Origin: Mesorhizobium sp. YIM 152430
GTDB taxonomy: Bacteria; Pseudomonadota; Alphaproteobacteria; Rhizobiales; Rhizobiaceae
NCBI RefSeq assembly: GCF_029210365.1
Contig: NZ_JARGES010000001.1
Coordinates: 1 to 64,000, forward strand
Direction of reading: 5' to 3'
Length of the DNA: 64,000 nt
This document shows, in pieces, positions 54,516 through 61,952 of the stretch. The notes beneath the pieces are model-generated. The model saw nothing but the letters and a program-made list of their open reading frames with translations, did not search any database and was not told the DNA's origin. Positions within the stretch are counted from its first letter, which is position 1, and every line of letters starts with the position of its first letter. The position numbers were made by a program, and so were the translations under genes.

Positions 54516-55925
54516 TCACTTGCCGGCGGTTTCGACCACTGCATCGCAGATGCCGGAGGCATCGAGCAGGCCGGCGCCATAGACGGGATCGCGACCGGGT
54601 TCGCCGAGATCGGACGCGCTTGCTGACAGGCGCTGTTCGAGTTCTGCCAATGTCAGGCCGTCCTCGGTTGCAAGCAGCAGGGCGGCGGCGGCGGTGACGA
54701 AAGGCGCGGCAAAGGAAGTGCCGGTCTTGGTGCGTGCGCCCGAGATGGAAGCGGCCGTCCAGATATCGACGCCCGGCGCGGCGAGATCGATATGCTCGCC
54801 CTGAACGGCGCGCCGATAGATCCGACCGCGCCGGTCGACCGCGGTGACGGCAAGGACGCCGGGATAGGCGGCGGGAAAGCGCGGATCGGCACGCGCGCCG
54901 TCATTGCCCGCCGCAGCAACGAGCGCGATGTCGGATGAGAGCGCGGCGCGCACCATGCGTTCGAGAACGAGATTCGCATCGCCCGCAAGGCTGAGATTGA
55001 CGATGCGGGCCTGTCGCCCGATCAGCAGATCGAGCGCGCGCGCCACGTCATAGGCTGCGGCACGTTCGTCCTTTCCGTCTGCGACGAAGGCATCGACCGC
55101 GACGAGCCGCGCCGCGGGTAAAAGCCCGCGGGCCCGCGCCTGCGGGCGCCCCACCAGAAGGGCGGCCACGGCAGTTCCATGCTGTCGGCCCGATTGCGGC
55201 TCGGTCTCGTCCGAGATCCGCACCACTTCCAGATCAGTGCCTTCGAAGATCGCGTGCTGCGGATTGATGTCGGTGTCGACCATGCCGATCGTGACCGAAG
55301 CGGCGCAAGCTCGCATGTCCTCCGGCCAGTTCACCAGCTCCAGCGGCGCGCAGGCGGGACCGCTGCACGCCGAATGCGGGCGGGCGGCGCTGGCGCGGTA
55401 GAAGTGGTTGAAATCCGCGCTCGCCTCGGCATTGATCGCCCGGACGGCATCACGGGCGTCTTCGAGAGACAGGCCGTCGGGAATGCGCAGCTTGAGGATC
55501 GTCTGGTCCAGCGCCTCAAGACGCTCCTGCGACAGGATCGCATAGCCTGCGGCTTCGAGCGCGGCACCGTCGGCGGCCGTCAGACCGACCGCGACGATCT
55601 CGCGTTCAGCCTGTGACGGCAAGGCGACCGGCTGGGCGCGGGCGCGGCGCGGAGCCCGCTGGCGGGTTCCTGCGAACGGGCGAAGAAGCTGGCGGAGAAA
55701 GCGCGGCGGCCGCGCGCCTGTGCCCCGGAAGGAGGGCGCCGCTCCACCGCTTTCGCCCGCAGATGCCGCGCCGCCGTCACCGCCATCATCGCCGTCGTCG
55801 GCAAAAGCTGTCGCGTGAACCATCCTGAAGTCGGTGTCCGGCGCCACGGGAATCGCGGCCAGCAGCAGTGCGGCCAGAACCGCCGTAATCGACCTGTGCG
55901 CTCGTTTCACCTTGTCCACCTTCAT
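54516..55925 (-). CDS. Subtilisin-like exported serine protease (S8 family)
   Basis: A 469-residue subtilase. The N-terminal signal or anchor (SITAVLAALLLAAIPVA) is followed by a Gly/Asp-rich and Arg-rich propeptide to about residue 110, then an inhibitor-like pro-domain and the catalytic domain. The triad is Asp217 in GMVDTDI, His249 in RQHGTAVAALL and Ser404 in GTSFAAPFVTA, with the oxyanion Asn341 in AAAGNDGAR. It acts outside the cytoplasm. A GGAAT-N16-CGTT promoter in front shares its -10 with the divergent ECF sigma gene. It may process the glycine-rich protein at 58601-59011 or act on a sigma-pathway signal; both are speculation. Confidence 0.88.
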   Translation of the reverse strand: MKVDKVKRAHRSITAVLAALLLAAIPVAPDTDFRMVHATAFADDGDDGGDGGAASAGESGGAAPSFRGTGARPPRFLRQLLRPFAGTRQRAPRRARAQPVALPSQAEREIVAVGLTAADGAALEAAGYAILSQERLEALDQTILKLRIPDGLSLEDARDAVRAINAEASADFNHFYRASAARPHSACSGPACAPLELVNWPEDMRACAASVTIGMVDTDINPQHAIFEGTDLEVVRISDETEPQSGRQHGTAVAALLVGRPQARARGLLPAARLVAVDAFVADGKDERAAAYDVARALDLLIGRQARIVNLSLAGDANLVLERMVRAALSSDIALVAAAGNDGARADPRFPAAYPGVLAVTAVDRRGRIYRRAVQGEHIDLAAPGVDIWTAASISGARTKTGTSFAAPFVTAAAALLLATEDGLTLAELEQRLSASASDLGEPGRDPVYGAGLLDASGICDAVVETAGK

Positions 55926-55934
55926 GTGATTGCC

Positions 55935-55960
55935 GGAATAAGGGTTGGACTGGAAACGTT
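55935..55960 (+). promoter_or_regulatory. ECF-type promoter for the sigma/anti-sigma genes
   Basis: GGAAT (55935-55939), 17 bases, CGTT (55957-55960), preceding the ECF sigma gene by 53 bases. It matches three other sites in this region and implies autoregulation. Confidence 0.55.
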
Positions 55961-55979
55961 GGAAGAGAGCACATATTCC
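55955..55979 (-). promoter_or_regulatory. ECF-type promoter for the subtilase
   Basis: On the minus strand GGAAT (55979-55975), 16 bases, CGTT (55958-55955). Its -10 overlaps that of the opposing promoter in a palindromic AACGTT (55955-55960). Confidence 0.55.
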
Positions 55980-56013
55980 TGTGCGTTGAAATTTGTTTCC
56001 AGACAGGCGAGCG

Positions 56014-56547
56014 ATGACGAGCCCTCCCAATGACATCGGCGACCAACTCATCGCATTCCTGCCCAATATGAGACGGTTCGCGCTGTCGCTTTCGCGCGCG
56101 CCGGACATTGCCGACGATCTGGTGCAGCAGGCCTGCGAGCGCGCGCTTGCCAATGCGGCGAGCTTCGAGCCGGGCACGCGTTTCGACGCCTGGATATTCC
56201 GCATCATCCGCAATCTGTGGATCGACCGCACACGCCGTCAGAAGACCGCCGGTCCCAGCGAAGACGTTTACGAGCGCCAGGATCTGGTCGGTGAAGACGG
56301 GCAGCAGGTGGTGGATGCGCGCCAGGCACTCACCTCGGTGAAGGAAGCGCTCGACGCGATGCCAGAGGAACAGCGCGCCATCGTCATGCTCGTCTGCGTC
56401 GACGACCTGTCCTATCGCGATGCCGCCGAGGTGCTGGGTGTGCCGATCGGCACGGTGATGAGCCGGCTGGCGCGCGCGCGCAAAAGACTTGCCGAGATGA
56501 CGGGAATAAACCCGGCGCCGGGTCGTTCTACCGGTGCGAGGGATTGA
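56014..56547 (+). CDS. ECF sigma factor
   Basis: A 177-residue extracytoplasmic-function sigma factor. Region 2 has IADDLVQQACERALANAASF and FDAWIFRIIRNLWID; region 4 has AMPEEQRAIVMLVCVDDLSY and IGTVMSRLARARKRL. It is followed five bases later by its anti-sigma factor. It is related to EcfG in the core but lacks NepR and PhyR partners. Four GGAAT-N16/17-CGTT sites within 3.3 kb are probable targets. Confidence 0.92.
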   Translation: MTSPPNDIGDQLIAFLPNMRRFALSLSRAPDIADDLVQQACERALANAASFEPGTRFDAWIFRIIRNLWIDRTRRQKTAGPSEDVYERQDLVGEDGQQVVDARQALTSVKEALDAMPEEQRAIVMLVCVDDLSYRDAAEVLGVPIGTVMSRLARARKRLAEMTGINPAPGRSTGARD

Positions 56548-56551
56548 AACC

Positions 56552-57328
56552 ATGACCGAACCGATGATTTTCGACGACGAAACACTGATGACCTTCGCCG
56601 ATGGCGAACTCGACGAAGCGACGACGCTGGCGGTCGAGCGCGCGATGGAGACCGACGATGCGCTGATGATGCGCGTTGCGACCTTCATGGAAACGCGCGC
56701 GGCGGCACATGCGGCATTCACTCCGGCCGAGCCCGTTCCGGCGGCGCTGGAGGAAAGTGTGCGCGGCATGGTCGAGCGCCATCGCGCAGCGGCGCAGCCG
56801 ACCTCGAATGTCGTCTCGCTGGGCGCCGCGCGGACGAAGCGTTTCGCCTTCGCGCAATCGACATGGCAATTGCCGCTGGCCGCATCGCTGGCGACCGCGA
56901 TCGCGGCCGGCTTCATCGGCTACCAGCTCGGCCAGGGACCCGGCTCCGCACCAGCGGACTCCGACCCTGGCGGCTTTTCGAACGCCGAGATCGCATCGGT
57001 GCTCGACAGCGCGGCTTCCGGAGACGAGGTCGCCATTGCCGACGGATCGGGCCGCGTGCGAATGATTTCGTCTTTCAAGGAACAGAGCGGCGCGCTCTGC
57101 CGCGAGTATGAGGTAGACCGCAGCGCCGGTGCATCCCTCGTCGCCGTCTCCTGCCGGGACGACGGCGAATGGGCGATGCGCTTTGCCGTCGCCGCGCCGG
57201 CTGGCGGCGACGGCTATGCGCCCGCCTCCTCCCTCGACGCGCTCGAAGCCTATCTCGGCGCCATCGAAGCCGGCCCCGCCCTGACGGCGGACGAAGAACG
57301 CGCCGCCCTTTCCGAGGCGGCGCGCTGA
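56552..57328 (+). CDS. Membrane-anchored anti-sigma factor
   Basis: A 258-residue protein. The N-terminal 85 residues have the anti-sigma pattern (LMTFADGELDEATTLAVE), without the HxxxCxxC zinc motif. One transmembrane helix follows at about residues 106-125 (LPLAASLATAIAAGFIGYQL) and a periplasmic domain of about 130 residues with a cysteine pair (GALCREYEV and VAVSCRDDG). The topology suits sensing outside the membrane and release of the sigma factor by regulated proteolysis. The ATG at 56552 lies five bases after the sigma stop. Confidence 0.87.
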   Translation: MTEPMIFDDETLMTFADGELDEATTLAVERAMETDDALMMRVATFMETRAAAHAAFTPAEPVPAALEESVRGMVERHRAAAQPTSNVVSLGAARTKRFAFAQSTWQLPLAASLATAIAAGFIGYQLGQGPGSAPADSDPGGFSNAEIASVLDSAASGDEVAIADGSGRVRMISSFKEQSGALCREYEVDRSAGASLVAVSCRDDGEWAMRFAVAAPAGGDGYAPASSLDALEAYLGAIEAGPALTADEERAALSEAAR

Positions 57329-57339
57329 ACGATTTCAGA

Positions 57340-58533
57340 TCATAGCGGCCGGGCGAGCCCTTTTTCCATCAGGCGTGAAATGAGGCCGGCAAGATCGGCC
57401 TCGATGCGCGTCCGCTCGATCTGCGGATAAGTCTCTGCGAGTTCGTCGGCAAGGTCGAGCGGTGCGACGGGAGCGGCGAGCGCATCCCAGATGGCCGCGC
57501 CCAGCGCGTCGAGCGCGAAAATGCCGCCGCCCGTCCGGTCGGCGAGAAACGCGCCGCCATCGGCGGTGGAACGCAGCACCACATCGCCCGACCGGACGAT
57601 CCGGCCGGCAGGCAAAGGCGCCGGCGCGGATGCGAATTCGGCCGGAGCAATGGACGGTACGCCGCAGCGCAGCGTGGCATGAGCGGAGGCGAGATCCACT
57701 GCCGCCAGTTCCTTCAAGAGAGCGCAGGCGTCGGACAGCCTGTCATACCGCAGCAGCAGCGAAGGGCATTGCAGGGCGAGGCGCTCAATGCGTGCGAGCA
57801 CGATGTCGGACGGCGCGGCATTGCCGAAATTCTGGACGAGCAGGATCTTCATCGCCTGTTCGGGCAGGACCGAAAGCAGTTCCGGCCGGGCGCCGCCTGC
57901 GCGTTCCAGAAAGACGAAGGCGCTCGCATCGCGCCTTTCGCCGAAGCGGGCGAGGCTGGATCGCGGCAACGCCAGATAGCGGTAGTGGCCGTCATCCGGT
58001 CCCTTGTGACGCCAGGCACGAAAAGCGAAGCGGCGGCCGAGCGCGCGCGGCAAGGGCACACGCAGGCGCGGGGCCACGCCCGAGGCAACGAGCGCCCCGA
58101 CGCCGTCCCGGCAATCGACGGGCACGATGTCATCGGCGACGATCTGCGCGCCGGCGAAGGCGAGCGCTGCGGTCAGCGTGCTCTTGCCCGCGCGATGGGT
58201 CGACGGAAAGACGAAATTGCGGCCGGCAAGCGATACCGCGCCGGCATGGAGGCAGAGCATCGACGGATCGGGCTCGACCATGCGGTTGAGCAGGATCGCG
58301 ACGAGGCTGCACGCGGCACTGACGGCGCTGGCCTCGGTGAATGCGCGCCGGTCCGGCTCGTCGATGACGAAGCCCGCGCCATGACGGCGCACTTCGAGGA
58401 GCGGGTCGCAACCATCCGAAACCGCCGTCCACGACCATCCGCTGGTGACCCGCTTCAATATGGCCAGAACGGGTTCGGCATCGGCAAAGCGCACCGGACG
58501 ATCGACCAGGGCGCAGGAATGATTGACAGGCAT
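57340..58533 (-). CDS. Fusion of HPr-kinase-like and PqqD domains
   Basis: A 397-residue protein. The middle has an HPr kinase/phosphorylase-like P-loop, THRAGKSTLTAAL near residues 112-124, and a following acidic pair in IVADDIVPV (134-135). The C-terminal roughly 90 residues (from about 310) match PqqD: GGIFALDALGAAIWDAL, then a helical segment ending LISRLMEKGLARP. PqqD-like domains bind peptide leaders in RiPP pathways, and separate HprK-related and PqqD proteins occur together in the 'HPr-rel-A' systems. Here they are fused, and the gene immediately upstream encodes a small glycine-rich exported protein. GAGGGA precedes the ATG at 58533. Client and activity are unknown. Confidence 0.75.
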   Translation of the reverse strand: MPVNHSCALVDRPVRFADAEPVLAILKRVTSGWSWTAVSDGCDPLLEVRRHGAGFVIDEPDRRAFTEASAVSAACSLVAILLNRMVEPDPSMLCLHAGAVSLAGRNFVFPSTHRAGKSTLTAALAFAGAQIVADDIVPVDCRDGVGALVASGVAPRLRVPLPRALGRRFAFRAWRHKGPDDGHYRYLALPRSSLARFGERRDASAFVFLERAGGARPELLSVLPEQAMKILLVQNFGNAAPSDIVLARIERLALQCPSLLLRYDRLSDACALLKELAAVDLASAHATLRCGVPSIAPAEFASAPAPLPAGRIVRSGDVVLRSTADGGAFLADRTGGGIFALDALGAAIWDALAAPVAPLDLADELAETYPQIERTRIEADLAGLISRLMEKGLARPL

Positions 58534-58553
58534 CGGGCGTCCCTCACGGATAG

Positions 58554-58581
58554 CGGCCGGCCGGAACGAACCGGCCGGCCG
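58554..58581 (-). terminator. Strong intercistronic stem-loop after the glycine-rich gene
   Basis: CGGCCGGCCGG and CCGGCCGGCCG form a perfect 11-bp stem with loop AACGAA, in the 67 bases between the glycine-rich gene and the kinase-PqqD gene. There is no T-run. It could stabilise the upstream message or lower expression of the downstream enzyme, a layout common between an abundant precursor and its modifier. Confidence 0.6.
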
Positions 58582-58600
58582 GCTGTGCGGATACAGGTGC

Positions 58601-59011
58601 TCAGTTGAAGCCGAACGCGCGACCGATGCTGCGGCCCATATTCTGCATTCCGCGGCCGAAGGAATCGATCGCCTGGCCCGCGCCGCGACCGAACGAGCCA
58701 CCGCGGCCGCCACGACCGCCACGCCCGCCTGAGCCGGCGAACCCGCCACGACCGCCGGAACCACGGCCGCCCGAACCGCCGAAGCTGCCGCCGCCGAAGC
58801 CGCCTCCGCCCGAGCCGCCTCCACCGCCACCGCCGCCGGAGCCTGCGCCACCGCCGGAGCCGGCACCGGACGCATGGGCCTGGCTCAATTGCAGAAGCGC
58901 CGGTGCGCTGTAGGCGGCGGCGGCCAGCAGGCCGATGCGGCCGAGTGCGCGGCGACGGCCGAGCGACACGGTTTCGGCTTGCGGATTGGGAATCTTGTGA
59001 TCGTTTTTCAT
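58601..59011 (-). CDS. Glycine-rich exported protein with Tat-like signal
   Basis: A 136-residue protein in three parts. Residues 1-47 are a leader with twin arginines (LGRRRALGRIGLL) and a hydrophobic core ending SQAHA, resembling a Tat or long Sec signal. Residues 48-110 are nearly all Gly with Ser, Phe, Ala and Arg, in GGRG and GGSFGG type repeats. Residues 111-136 (AGQAIDSFGRGMQNMGRS and a short remainder) form a cationic, potentially amphipathic helix. There is no cysteine. AGGAGG precedes the ATG. A GGAAT-N16-CGTT promoter lies 64-88 bases upstream. Together with the next gene it looks like a precursor with its modification enzyme; a structural or RNA-binding Gly-rich protein is the alternative. 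Confidence 0.72.
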   Translation of the reverse strand: MKNDHKIPNPQAETVSLGRRRALGRIGLLAAAAYSAPALLQLSQAHASGAGSGGGAGSGGGGGGGGSGGGGFGGGSFGGSGGRGSGGRGGFAGSGGRGGRGGRGGSFGRGAGQAIDSFGRGMQNMGRSIGRAFGFN

Positions 59012-59074
59012 CTTGACCTCCTGTTGCGATATCGAGCCGTTCAGCCTCGCGGGCTTTTGCGGTCTCGACCGGCA

Positions 59075-59099
59075 AACGAAGGGCGCCGCGCTTTATTCC
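59075..59099 (-). promoter_or_regulatory. ECF-type promoter for the glycine-rich gene
   Basis: On the minus strand GGAAT (59099-59095), 16 bases, CGTT (59078-59075). The flanking bases (GCGGGAATAA) are the same as at the opposing promoter at 59125. Confidence 0.55.
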
Positions 59100-59124
59100 C
59101 GCCCCTCGGCTTCGGCCGTTTGCG

Positions 59125-59149
59125 GGAATAAGAGGCCGAACGGGACGTT
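59125..59149 (+). promoter_or_regulatory. ECF-type promoter for the SLC13 transporter
   Basis: GGAAT (59125-59129), 16 bases, CGTT (59146-59149), 31 bases before the transporter start. With the minus-strand site it forms an inverted repeat of GCGGGAATAA. Confidence 0.5.
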
Positions 59150-59179
59150 CGTCGACGAACAGAACAACGGACGCAACCG

Positions 59180-60598
59180 ATGACCGCGATTTCCCTATCC
59201 TTGACCCGCCCGACATTTGCCGCCGGCTTTCGGGCGTGGCTTGCGGCTGCGGCAAGCGTCGCCATCGCATGGCTGGCGATCGCCCTGTTCCTGTCCGACC
59301 TTGCCTTCGAAGGCCGCGCGACGCTCGCCATCTTCGCTGCCATGATGGCCGGCTGGCTGATCCTGAAGCTGCCCGAAACGCCGGTCGCCATCACCGCCTT
59401 TCTCGCGCTGGCGGCGACCGGCGCGGCGGACCAGGACGACCTTTTCGACACGTTCGACAACGAAATCATCTGGTTGTTGATCGCAGCCTTCATCCTTGCA
59501 GCGATCATCAAGCGCACGGGGCTCGCCGAGCGCCACGCGACGAGCGCGATCGGCCGGTTCCGCACCGTTCCCGCGATGTTCACGGCGGCGACGCTGATCA
59601 TCTTCGCCACGGCGTTCTTCATTCCCTCGACCTCGGCGCGCGCGGCGATCCTGCTGCCGGTCTTCGCCGCGCTTTCGGCGGCAATCGGCCGGCCGGGCGT
59701 CACCAAGGGGCTGGCGCTGCTCTTTCCGAGCGTGATCCTGCTTTCGGCCGGGGCATCGCTCACCGGGGCGGGCGCGCATCTGATCGCCCTCGGCTTCATC
59801 GACGAGATCGACGGACCAAAGATTTCCTATCTCGACTGGGCGATGCTTGGCGCACCGTTCGCGCTGGCGATGAGCCTTGCGGCGAATTTCGCGATCCAGC
59901 GGCTTTTTCTGACGCCGGAGGACAAGGCTCCGCTCGCGCGCGCCATCGCCGCTCCCGTCGAACCGCGTGCCGGCGACCGTCGCCTGACCGCGATCATCGT
60001 CGCGACGGTGGCGCTGTGGGCGACCGGCGGCTGGCACGGCATCGATCTTGCCCTGATCGCACTCGGCGCGGCACTGCTCGCGGCCACGAAGGCCGTCTCG
60101 GGCATCGCCTTCAAGGACGCGCTTAAGGACGTCGACTGGAACCTGCTCTTCTTCCTCGCGGCGACGCTCGTCGTCGGCGAGGCGTTGCTCGAAACGGGCG
60201 CCGCGGCCTTCCTCGTCGACCGGCTGGTCGGATCGCTGGACATGGCGCTGAGCCCGGCATTGACGATCGCGATCGCAGCCGTCGTCGCCGCGCTCGCCCA
60301 TCTCGTCATCATCTCGCGCACCGCGCGCGCCGCCGTGCTGATTCCGGCGCTGGCGCTGCCACTGTGGCGCTTCGGCACCGATCCGACGACGCTGATCTTC
60401 GTCGTGACGATCGCGAGCGGCTTTTGCCAGACGCTGATGGTGTCGGCCAAGCCGGTGATGCTGTTCGGCCAGGCGGAGGGACACCCCTTCAGTCAAGGCG
60501 ACCTCCTGCGGCTCGCCCTTTGGCTGCTGCCGGTCTTCGTCGCGGGACTCCTGTTCTTCGCCCTGGTCGTCTGGCCGATGCAGGGTCTTGCCGGCTGA
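59180..60598 (+). CDS. SLC13/DASS-family anion permease
   Basis: A 472-residue inner-membrane transporter with about 11-12 helices. The family pattern is in LLIAAFILAAIIKRTGLAER (first half) and again in NLLFFLAATLVVGEALLE, with the SxT-type loops IPSTSARAAILLPV and ISRTARAAVLIPAL. Members move sulfate, di- or tricarboxylates with sodium. The substrate is unknown. It is divergent from the glycine-rich gene and has its own GGAAT-N16-CGTT site, so it may be part of the same ECF regulon. Confidence 0.87.
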   Translation: MTAISLSLTRPTFAAGFRAWLAAAASVAIAWLAIALFLSDLAFEGRATLAIFAAMMAGWLILKLPETPVAITAFLALAATGAADQDDLFDTFDNEIIWLLIAAFILAAIIKRTGLAERHATSAIGRFRTVPAMFTAATLIIFATAFFIPSTSARAAILLPVFAALSAAIGRPGVTKGLALLFPSVILLSAGASLTGAGAHLIALGFIDEIDGPKISYLDWAMLGAPFALAMSLAANFAIQRLFLTPEDKAPLARAIAAPVEPRAGDRRLTAIIVATVALWATGGWHGIDLALIALGAALLAATKAVSGIAFKDALKDVDWNLLFFLAATLVVGEALLETGAAAFLVDRLVGSLDMALSPALTIAIAAVVAALAHLVIISRTARAAVLIPALALPLWRFGTDPTTLIFVVTIASGFCQTLMVSAKPVMLFGQAEGHPFSQGDLLRLALWLLPVFVAGLLFFALVVWPMQGLAG

Positions 60599-60680
60599 AA
60601 CTTTTTCGCCGGCGAAGGGAATAGAAGCGGGTGCCGAACGTCATCCTCGCGAACAGACATTCTCAAGCGAGATCAAGACC

Positions 60681-61952
60681 ATGCCCATGACCATTCTGAT
60701 CGCTCCCTCCGGCTTCAAGGAAAGCCTTTCGGCCGAAATGGTCGCCGCCCGCATCGAGGCCGGCGTCAAGCGTGCCCTGCCCTCGGCCCGCATCCTGAAG
60801 GCGCCGATGGCCGATGGCGGCGAAGGGTTCACGCGGGCGCTGGTCGAGGCGACCGACGGGACGCTCCATCCGATGCGCGTGACCGGTCCGGTTGGCGATC
60901 CCGTCGACGCCTTCTTTGGAATGCTGGGCGGGCAGGACCAGCCGACGGCCGTGGTCGAGATGGCCGCCGCCGCAGGGCTGCGCCATGTCCCGCGCGACCG
61001 TCGCGACCCGACCCGCACCACCAGCTTCGGCGTCGGGGAACTCATCCGCGCGGCACTCGATCATGGTGCGACGCGCATCCTGCTCGGCTGCGGCGACAGC
61101 GGCGTCAATGACGGCGGCGCGGGCATGGCCGAGGCGCTGGGCGTGCGCTTCCTCGACGGCGACGGCAAGCGTGTGCTGGCGGGCGGCGGCGGACTGGCCG
61201 GGCTGGCGCGCATAGACGTCTCGGGCCGCGATGCGCGCCTTTCCGACGTGCGGATCGACGCGGCCGTCAACTGGCACAATCTCCTGACCGGGCCGAAGGG
61301 CGTCGCCCGCGTGTTCGGCCCGCAAAAGGGCGCGACTCCCGCACAGGTCGAGCTTCTGTCCGGCGCGATGGAAACCTATGCCGATCTGATCGAGAGGACG
61401 ACGGGCGTGCGCGTCTCGGACGCGTCGGGCGCCGGCGCCTCCGGCGGGATCGGAGCGGCGGTGATGGGCCTGCTAAACGGCACGCTGCACCCGCGCTACG
61501 ACCTGGTCATGCAGTATCTCGACCTCGACGCGCTGATCGACGAAGCCGATCTCGTCATCACCGCCGAAGGCAGCCTCGACGGACAGACGCCCTACGGCAA
61601 GGTGCCGGTGGAAGTCGCGCGCCGGGCCAAGCTGCGCGGCCTGCCTGTCGTCGCGCTCGCCGGCACGATCGGCAAGGGCGCGGCCTCGAACTTCGCGCAC
61701 GGCATCGATGCCTTCGCCTCGATCGTCAAGCGCCCCTGCTCGCTCGACGAGGCGATCGAAAAGGCCGACAAGTTCCTGGTGCGCGCCGCCGAGGACGCGA
61801 CGCGCATGATCCTCGTCGGCATGATGCTGGCAGAGGACCGACAGGTGACCGATCGGCGATTCAGACGCCAGCGCGGCGCCCGCCTTTCGGCCGGCGCGAC
61901 CGTCGTTCCGTTTGCCCGCGCGATGCCGCGCGAAATTCCGATAGCCGGATAA
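60681..61952 (+). CDS. Glycerate 2-kinase (GarK/GlxK family) with C-terminal extension
   Basis: Phosphorylates glycerate to 2-phosphoglycerate using ATP. The 423-residue protein has the family N-terminus LIAPSGFKESLSAEMVAARI, then PMADGGEGF, LLGCGDSGVNDGGAGM and ITAEGSLDGQTPYGK. The last 40 residues (DRRFRRQRGARLSAG and on) are basic and extend beyond the usual end of about 380. The start at 60681 (or 60687) has a weak upstream GAG. It follows the transporter by 82 bases in the same direction; a glycerate-related import is possible but unproven. Confidence 0.88.
   Translation: MPMTILIAPSGFKESLSAEMVAARIEAGVKRALPSARILKAPMADGGEGFTRALVEATDGTLHPMRVTGPVGDPVDAFFGMLGGQDQPTAVVEMAAAAGLRHVPRDRRDPTRTTSFGVGELIRAALDHGATRILLGCGDSGVNDGGAGMAEALGVRFLDGDGKRVLAGGGGLAGLARIDVSGRDARLSDVRIDAAVNWHNLLTGPKGVARVFGPQKGATPAQVELLSGAMETYADLIERTTGVRVSDASGAGASGGIGAAVMGLLNGTLHPRYDLVMQYLDLDALIDEADLVITAEGSLDGQTPYGKVPVEVARRAKLRGLPVVALAGTIGKGAASNFAHGIDAFASIVKRPCSLDEAIEKADKFLVRAAEDATRMILVGMMLAEDRQVTDRRFRRQRGARLSAGATVVPFARAMPREIPIAG

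Follow-up and report, generated by a model that had tools for sequence, protein, structure and literature searches.

The window analysed here is a 64 kb stretch of Mesorhizobium sp. YIM 152430 (positions 1 to 64,000 of contig NZ_JARGES010000001.1). Towards its end, a gene for a small Gly-rich protein with a twin-arginine translocation (Tat) signal is followed on the same strand by a gene for a fusion of an HprK-like kinase with a C-terminal PqqD domain, i.e. a recognition element (RRE) of the kind present in pathways for ribosomally synthesized and post-translationally modified peptides (RiPPs). The pair is flanked on one side by genes for an extracytoplasmic function (ECF) sigma factor, an anti-sigma factor and a divergent subtilase, and on the other by genes for an anion permease and a glycerate kinase (Table 1). 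An earlier interpretation of the DNA letters, below called the sequence-only reading, had named all of these except the glycerate kinase gene, and every gene that it named was found in its place.

Table 1. Genes and ECF26-type sites of the locus, with positions counted from the first base of the window.
Feature	Position	Strand	Remarks
S8 subtilase	54516-55925	-	N-terminus resembling a signal, with the catalytic motifs; belongs to the sigma factor core rather than to the client
ECF26-type site	55935-55960	+	before sigma gene; exact GGAAT-N16/17-CGTT
ECF26-type site	55955-55979	-	before subtilase gene; exact
ECF sigma factor	56014-56547	+	63% identity (172 aa) to the sigma factor of S. meliloti pSymA at the RpoE6 position
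ECF26-type site	56503-56527	+	within sigma gene, before anti-sigma gene; exact; like the mapped ecfR6 promoter of S. meliloti
Anti-sigma factor	56552-57328	+	single hydrophobic (membrane) stretch, judged by eye
HprK-like kinase with C-terminal PqqD domain (RRE), fusion	57340-58533	-	catalytic H96, K117, D134, D135; D380
Small Gly-rich protein, very probable client	58601-59011	-	Tat signal with YxxPxL (Y34-P37-L39), AHA cleavage motif
ECF26-type promoter-like site	59075-59099	-	client-fusion pair; exact
ECF26-type site	59125-59149	+	before permease gene; exact
DASS/SLC13 anion permease	59180-60598	+	separate regulon arm
Weaker site (CGTC)	60618-60642	+	before glycerate kinase gene
Glycerate kinase	60681-61952	+	permease partner in related loci

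Sequence comparison makes the Gly-rich protein a very probable client of the HprK-PqqD fusion. A profile built from four fusion proteins gave 30 named loci. In the class sample of 385 genomes fusion matches were present in 37, and in the family sample of 297 Rhizobiaceae genomes in 18, the own genome being counted in both. The leader profile A3 (E ≤ 1e-6) matched all 18 Rhizobiaceae genomes with the fusion and one of the 279 without it (Fisher p about 6e-28), and two further genomes of the latter group appeared at E near 1e-3. The rows of A3 came from eight of the 18 fusion genomes, and the remaining ten, with no rows in the profile, all matched it as well. In the sole exception, G589, the contig breaks off 72 bases beyond the leader gene, on the side expected to hold the fusion. 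Within the window's genus the pair was present in three of the four other genomes, and the fourth (G637) had neither fusion, leader nor subtilase. The sequence-only reading had already taken the Gly-rich protein for a client of the fusion and proposed co-occurrence in relatives as a check. This is borne out by the co-occurrence, with the leader present in all 18 fusion genomes, by the adjacency of the two genes in most loci and by the YxxPxL motif of the leader.

Among the 30 named loci a leader protein was found in 27, lying downstream in L037 and L043, whose upstream side is cut; those without it were L045 and L051, with at most 724 bases upstream, and L055, where the match covers 54 residues only. 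For the class sample, 29 loci were examined with flanks of 1.5 kb, and 17 of them had a leader there, namely the 15 best-scoring ones and two of the 14 others. The pair is spread over several groups of Pseudomonadota and also occurs in genomes labelled Desulfobulbus and Desulfobacterales. The Rhodobacteraceae/Rhodobacterales loci (L032-L035, L038, L043, L044, L047) combine it with a leader-bearing PepSY protein and a two-component system. An annotated Shinella plasmid has the anti-sigma and sigma genes divergent from subtilase, small protein and fusion genes. The annotated plasmid of Paracoccus marcusii has the same order of sigma, subtilase and fusion, with an unannotated leader start and a site between subtilase and fusion, where the frame appears shifted. 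In three Kiloniellales/Rhodospirillales loci (L028, L029, L031) the ECF sigma factor is more distant (about 39% identity), and two additional Gly/Ser-rich leader proteins lie near the fusion.

The genome of the window also carries a second copy of the unit on contig C7, which was reached via two other genomic promoter-like sites. Here genes for a subtilase and for a protein of 70 aa, each of which has a Tat leader of the same type, precede another HprK-PqqD gene. The tail of the 70-aa protein, with its RRSFSRRSFSR repeats, is very unlike that of the window client. When the leader profile was run against the own genome, three proteins were found at E < 0.2, and these were the two small proteins and the C7 subtilase.

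The leader follows the consensus SRRxALxRLGLxAxAAYAAPALLTLSxAxAS, with Tyr and Pro fixed in the hydrophobic part; in an ordinary Tat signal this part has no fixed sequence. The residue two positions after the Pro (Y+5) is Leu, Phe, Val or Ile in 68 of the 70 small leader proteins, a count for which only YxxP was required. In a motif-blind position test of 81 loci, in which RR-type signal open reading frames (ORFs) beside the fusion were taken with no demand on the motif, [YW]xxP was present in 59 of 60 RR-type signals, and the exception (L083) resembles part of a response regulator as judged by eye. At the same place, the motif occurred in none of 30 ordinary Tat signals of the family, these being the best-scoring loci of their search. 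The leader ends in an AxA signal-peptidase motif, and TatC is encoded in the genome. Leader-bearing proteins also include enzymes or folded domains, namely subtilases and PepSY proteins. The form [Y/W]xxPx[L/V/I/F/A] is described as the motif bound by the discrete PqqD-type domains of lasso peptides and of Linear Polyphosphorylated Peptides (LPPs; PMC13381572).

The PqqD domain of the window fusion matched PF05402 with 39.9 bits (cut-off 23.4). In sequence-profile searches of the PDB this part matched TbiB1, LppB (9x8z), TfuB1 and PbaB1, all of them leader-binding PqqD-type domains, and the kinase part gave a weak match to HPr(Ser) kinase (E 0.003). The AlphaFold2 model of the fusion as a single chain (pLDDT 90.1, pTM 0.87) was placed by Foldseek in the PEPCK/HprK fold, with PEPCK ranked first. 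All 60 relatives compared, 12 of which lack a leader partner, have the catalytic H-K-D-D set unchanged, and a His-Lys-Asp-Asp set is reported to be required by lasso-peptide kinases (PMC9266682). The position of Asp70 in LppB, where this residue holds the leader Tyr (PMC13381572), is occupied by Asp in all 29 fusions compared, the residue being D380 in the window fusion, and the position of LppB Asn33 by Asn in 25 and by Asp in four of the 29.

In the reading preferred here, which is considered fairly likely, the Tat signal doubles as a RiPP-type leader, and the fusion would bind the client and phosphorylate Ser near or in its tail before Tat export. The YxxPxL stretch in the hydrophobic part of the signal would dock into the groove of the PqqD domain, and the HprK-like kinase would phosphorylate one or more Ser just past the signal or in the tail, perhaps with several phosphates per Ser by analogy with the LPP and lasso kinases. 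The modified client would then be exported via Tat and its signal cleaved at AxA. Phosphorylation of the client on Ser, as supposed in the sequence-only reading, stays the likeliest modification. As a guess, the pathway may serve to provide the cell surface with an exported phosphoprotein or peptide.

The location of the motif inside the signal peptide would also suit a Tat proofreading chaperone, in which the PqqD domain holds the signal until folding is done and the P-loop domain is a switch driven by ATP, the client itself not being stably modified; the enzymes and folded domains among the leader-bearing proteins (subtilase, PepSY) may need export rather than modification. Such a chaperone is nevertheless unlikely, as H-K-D-D, on which kinases that phosphorylate peptides rely for catalysis, is intact in all 60 relatives, the low-complexity tails of the clients offer little to fold, and the LPP and lasso relatives phosphorylate. 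The ranking of PEPCK above HprK in the fold search, and the same sites at the glycerate kinase and permease genes as a hint of small-molecule work, would fit a kinase that transfers something else or has another target, e.g. a nucleotidyl or small-molecule kinase, with the leader protein only recruiting it. This is judged improbable: the glycerate kinase and permease genes were found to adjoin the fusion only in the window's genus and otherwise stood at loci without a fusion, and the fused PqqD domain points to a peptide substrate.

The mature parts of the clients are of low complexity and diverse, with Gly-Ser, Ser-Arg, Ser-Pro and Arg-Gly types, and the tail of the window client is rich in Gly, Ser and Arg with a cationic C-terminus. 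Ser makes up a median of 19% of the tail, compared with about 5% in large ORFs taken as a rough background. At least five Ser are present in 61 of 68 tails. This set lacks three leader ORFs that the pattern did not catch as well as L111, whose ORF is overextended, and of its two tails from L067 one is a doubtful ORF. A Ser is found at Y+13 to Y+20 in 64 of the 70 leader proteins; LppK is reported to modify Ser3 of LppA (PMC13381572), which by the count used here is Y+18. Many of the Rhizobiaceae clients have a short cationic segment after a Gly/Ser spacer, as judged by eye, and tails in other lineages are acidic or contain Cys. The Rhodobacteraceae clients (L032-L035, L038, L044), also judged by eye, share a two-Cys segment near the C-terminus in contrast to the cationic ends of Rhizobiaceae.

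These cationic ends could be the active part of a secreted, bacteriocin-like RiPP that is released by the subtilase; PqqD domains are typical of RiPP clusters, and subtilases process several RiPPs. A bioactive peptide of this kind is improbable, however, when the neighbouring genes and the other lineages are considered. For the surroundings of the unit, the incomplete gene tables of L131 and L132 name neither an exporter of peptides nor an immunity gene, the ABC genes of L131 being named as solute uptake and two SMR efflux genes lying about 7 kb off. Acidic or Cys-containing tails occur in other lineages, and in 27 genomes the subtilase is present but the pair is not. That the subtilase trims the Gly-rich protein, a further proposal of the sequence-only reading, gained no direct support; the leader ends in a signal-peptidase motif, and some subtilases bear a client-type leader themselves.

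Several observations weigh against the preferred reading. The likeness of the kinase part to HPr kinase is weak by sequence, and Pfam Hpr_kinase_C was found only in L131 (E 0.016, below the cut-off) and not in the window fusion. The window fusion has Asp at the position of LppB Asn33, a residue that matters for LppB binding. Twelve class loci (L072-L083) keep H-K-D-D, yet no leader protein was seen in the short stretches flanking them, which means that the kinase fold also serves other purposes; P110 is absent from all 12, but also from four kinases with a leader partner (L060, L069, L084, L085). The position test yielded no candidate in 20 further loci, five of them short of upstream sequence, and one more locus had no fusion ORF of sufficient length. 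Since the leader profiles were seeded with a pattern including Y/F and P, the motif count of 76 out of 81 is partly circular, and the position-based test is the cleaner one. Ser-rich tails are also not universal, as seven of the 68 (among them L062, L063, L067, L069 and L121) have fewer than five Ser.

The closest known systems are the LPPs (LppK/LppB/LppA; PMC13381572), which as described share with the pair an HprK-like kinase, a PqqD-type RRE of related sequence, a YxxPx[hydrophobic] leader, variable C-terminal cores (35-200 aa) and a Ser near the leader end. By sequence, the fusion retains intact HprK-like catalytic residues and the RRE Asp that holds the Tyr in LppB, and its client has the YxxPx[hydrophobic] leader. 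The differences are that the RRE is here usually fused to the kinase, that the leader is a Tat signal and that the hosts are mainly Pseudomonadota, while LPPs are stated to be restricted to Bacillota (PMC13381572). The long leader motif of LPPs, YxxPxVLxHQxIxFETxxS, was not found in the listed leaders, which continue with LLxLSxAxAS or similar. Matches to the nucleoside triphosphate (NTP) transferase of LPP clusters (PF14907) were present in four of the 18 fusion genomes, none of them near the fusion. No SipW-like leader peptidase or MsbA-like transporter is named in L131 (23 features) or L132 (14 features), gene tables that are incomplete and to which no profile search was applied. Because the long leader motif and the NTP transferase fail and the pathway occurs outside Bacillota, the client-fusion pathway is regarded as resembling the LPPs and not as a member of them.

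Phosphorylated lasso peptides (paeninodin PadeK, ThcoK; PMC9266682) are alike in having an H-K-D-D kinase that acts on a leader-bearing precursor and a B1-type PqqD domain. They differ in that the client is here a long low-complexity protein with an export signal and no lasso cyclase lies nearby: within 15 kb of the fusion none (Asn_synthase, PF00733) was found in the 18 genomes, the nearest match listed on a fusion contig being about 17 kb away (G676). The HPr-rel-A systems (TIGR04352/TIGR04353) likewise combine an HprK-related kinase with a PqqD-family partner in a different architecture. Membership in these was rejected because of the scores, which are far under the curated cut-offs; the window fusion reached 47.6 bits for the kinase HprK_rel_A (TIGR04352; cut-off 200 bits) and had no match to TIGR04353 (cut-off 35 bits), for which L027 scored 15.4 bits. 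Among the papers listed in searches of open-licence literature, none was seen to report a Tat-leader client with an HprK-PqqD fusion, and the word 'kinase' is absent from the main text of two RRE surveys (PMC7470986, PMC12710340). The statement of the sequence-only reading that no such system was described is too strong all the same, as an HprK-like kinase combined with recognition of a YxxP leader by a PqqD-type domain has been described for LPPs and phosphorylated lasso peptides.

The sigma, anti-sigma and subtilase genes form, by sequence, the known ECF26 arrangement of the S. meliloti RpoE6 type, the ECF26 grouping being judged by the identity to the pSymA relative. In S. meliloti, RpoE6 (group ECF26) is divergent from a serine protease, and promoters of the GGAATA..CGT type have been mapped for the protease gene, for SMa0148 and, within the sigma gene, for ecfR6 (PMC6180224). 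As reported there, the RpoE6/EcfR6 system with serine protease SMa0142 is like the window in sigma factor, anti-sigma factor, divergent subtilase and GGAATA/CGT promoters, one of them within the sigma gene. It differs in that its arm has an exported (SSSN)n protein and DUF6065 instead of the client-fusion pair. The three promoter strings were located at the expected places in L133, and a fourth (SMa0139) was not at its expected place in that locus. The window agrees with ECF26 in the sites with GGAATA -35 and CGT -10 elements on its own operon and targets, and with the RpoE6 type in the divergent protease and the downstream anti-sigma gene.

Seven site matches were found in the window, compared with a mean of 2.16 in shuffled sequences, and two of 100 shuffles reached seven. 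As this excess is too weak by itself, it was replaced by a comparison across loci. Genome-wide, GGAATA-N14-17-CGTT had 18 matches, five at the window locus and two at the second copy, against six for the reversed pattern. The survey across loci covered 61, the window and the second copy included, with mechanical ORF starts, so that misses may include misplaced starts. Sites near the ORF start were present at 15 of 20 leader ORFs, 41 of 53 subtilases and 32 of 47 anti-sigma genes, as against 6 of 348 controls. The corresponding numbers were 11 of 15 for permeases, 14 of 15 for glycerate kinases, 5 of 46 for sigma genes and 2 of 26 for fusions, and 10 of 10 for DUF6065 genes, 5 of 5 for DUF4956 genes and 0 of 5 for VTC genes. 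The four GGAAT-N16/17-CGTT sites of the sequence-only reading are present, and their number was corrected to five exact sites and a sixth, weaker one with CGTC; its view that the fusion gene has no site of its own largely holds across the loci. Control of the client-fusion unit by the ECF sigma factor, also proposed there, is very probable from the sites. Once freed from the anti-sigma factor by a cue, the ECF26-type sigma factor would turn on the pair and the subtilase, and in the window's genus also the anion permease and the glycerate kinase.

The proposal of one closed five-gene system was ruled out, as the subtilase, the permease and the glycerate kinase are repeatedly found where the client-fusion pair is missing. 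The subtilase (E ≤ 1e-80) was present in 42 of the 297 Rhizobiaceae genomes, in 15 of the 18 with the fusion and in 27 of the 279 without it; in one of the 15 (G784) only a leader-type subtilase paralogue was found. Both this cut-off and that for DUF6065 (E ≤ 1e-100) were chosen after gaps in the match lists had been seen. Of the 31 loci with the subtilase but no fusion (L133-L163), 12 carry both the permease and the glycerate kinase gene; beside the fusion, these two genes were found only in the window's genus (window, L111, L112). They are a separate, recurrent arm of the ECF26-type regulon, observed at 59180-61952 in the window and in L135, L138, L141, L145, L146, L149, L151, L152, L155, L159, L160 and L162.

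Ten of the 37 loci scanned (L133-L169) encode an apparently exported protein of (SSSN)n repeats that has a site of its own, and the same ten carry DUF6065. The repeat-protein loci are L133 (3673-4131, minus strand), L135, L142, L143, L144, L146, L147, L150, L158 and L159. The repeat protein is probably SMa0146 and the DUF6065 gene SMa0148, both of which are reported as RpoE6 targets (PMC6180224). The S. meliloti record has a hypothetical gene annotated on the opposite strand at the (SSSN)n gene. SMa0146 and SMa0148 were rejected as a client-fusion pair, since the genes there look like the (SSSN)n protein and DUF6065. When plasmids were searched with the fusion, six records were listed, from Paracoccus and Shinella only and none from Sinorhizobium. 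As permease and glycerate kinase, or (SSSN)n protein and DUF6065, sit at subtilase loci, the same sigma factor probably drives exchangeable outputs, one of which is the pair of Gly-rich protein and fusion.

If the preferred reading of leader-guided phosphorylation is correct, this type of modification, described for peptides of Bacillota, would also reach exported proteins in Pseudomonadota, and one short signal would be read by a modifying enzyme and a secretion machine alike. It also supplies candidate targets for RpoE6-type ECF26 sigma factors, with clients predictable from sequence; the S. meliloti study states that its own data failed to define the role of RpoE6 (PMC6180224). A wider scheme can be put forward tentatively, in which export signals are dual-coded, the Tat signal being at once a RiPP leader, and entire proteins bound for export (tails, subtilases, PepSY proteins) are marked by the kinase-RRE fusion before they are translocated. 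In this scheme Ser-repeat phosphoproteins that leave the cell would be what the ECF26 regulon is devoted to, with DUF6065 and the (SSSN)n protein as a second, unrelated pair of enzyme and client controlled by the same sigma factor.

Close relatives of DUF6065 were observed in 18 of the 297 Rhizobiaceae genomes, and 15 of these also have the sigma-linked subtilase, in parallel to the 15 of 18 for the fusion. In L134, L136, L137, L156 and L157, VTC polyphosphate-polymerase and DUF4956 genes stand beside the same sigma-subtilase core, a possible hint at a phosphate theme of the regulon.

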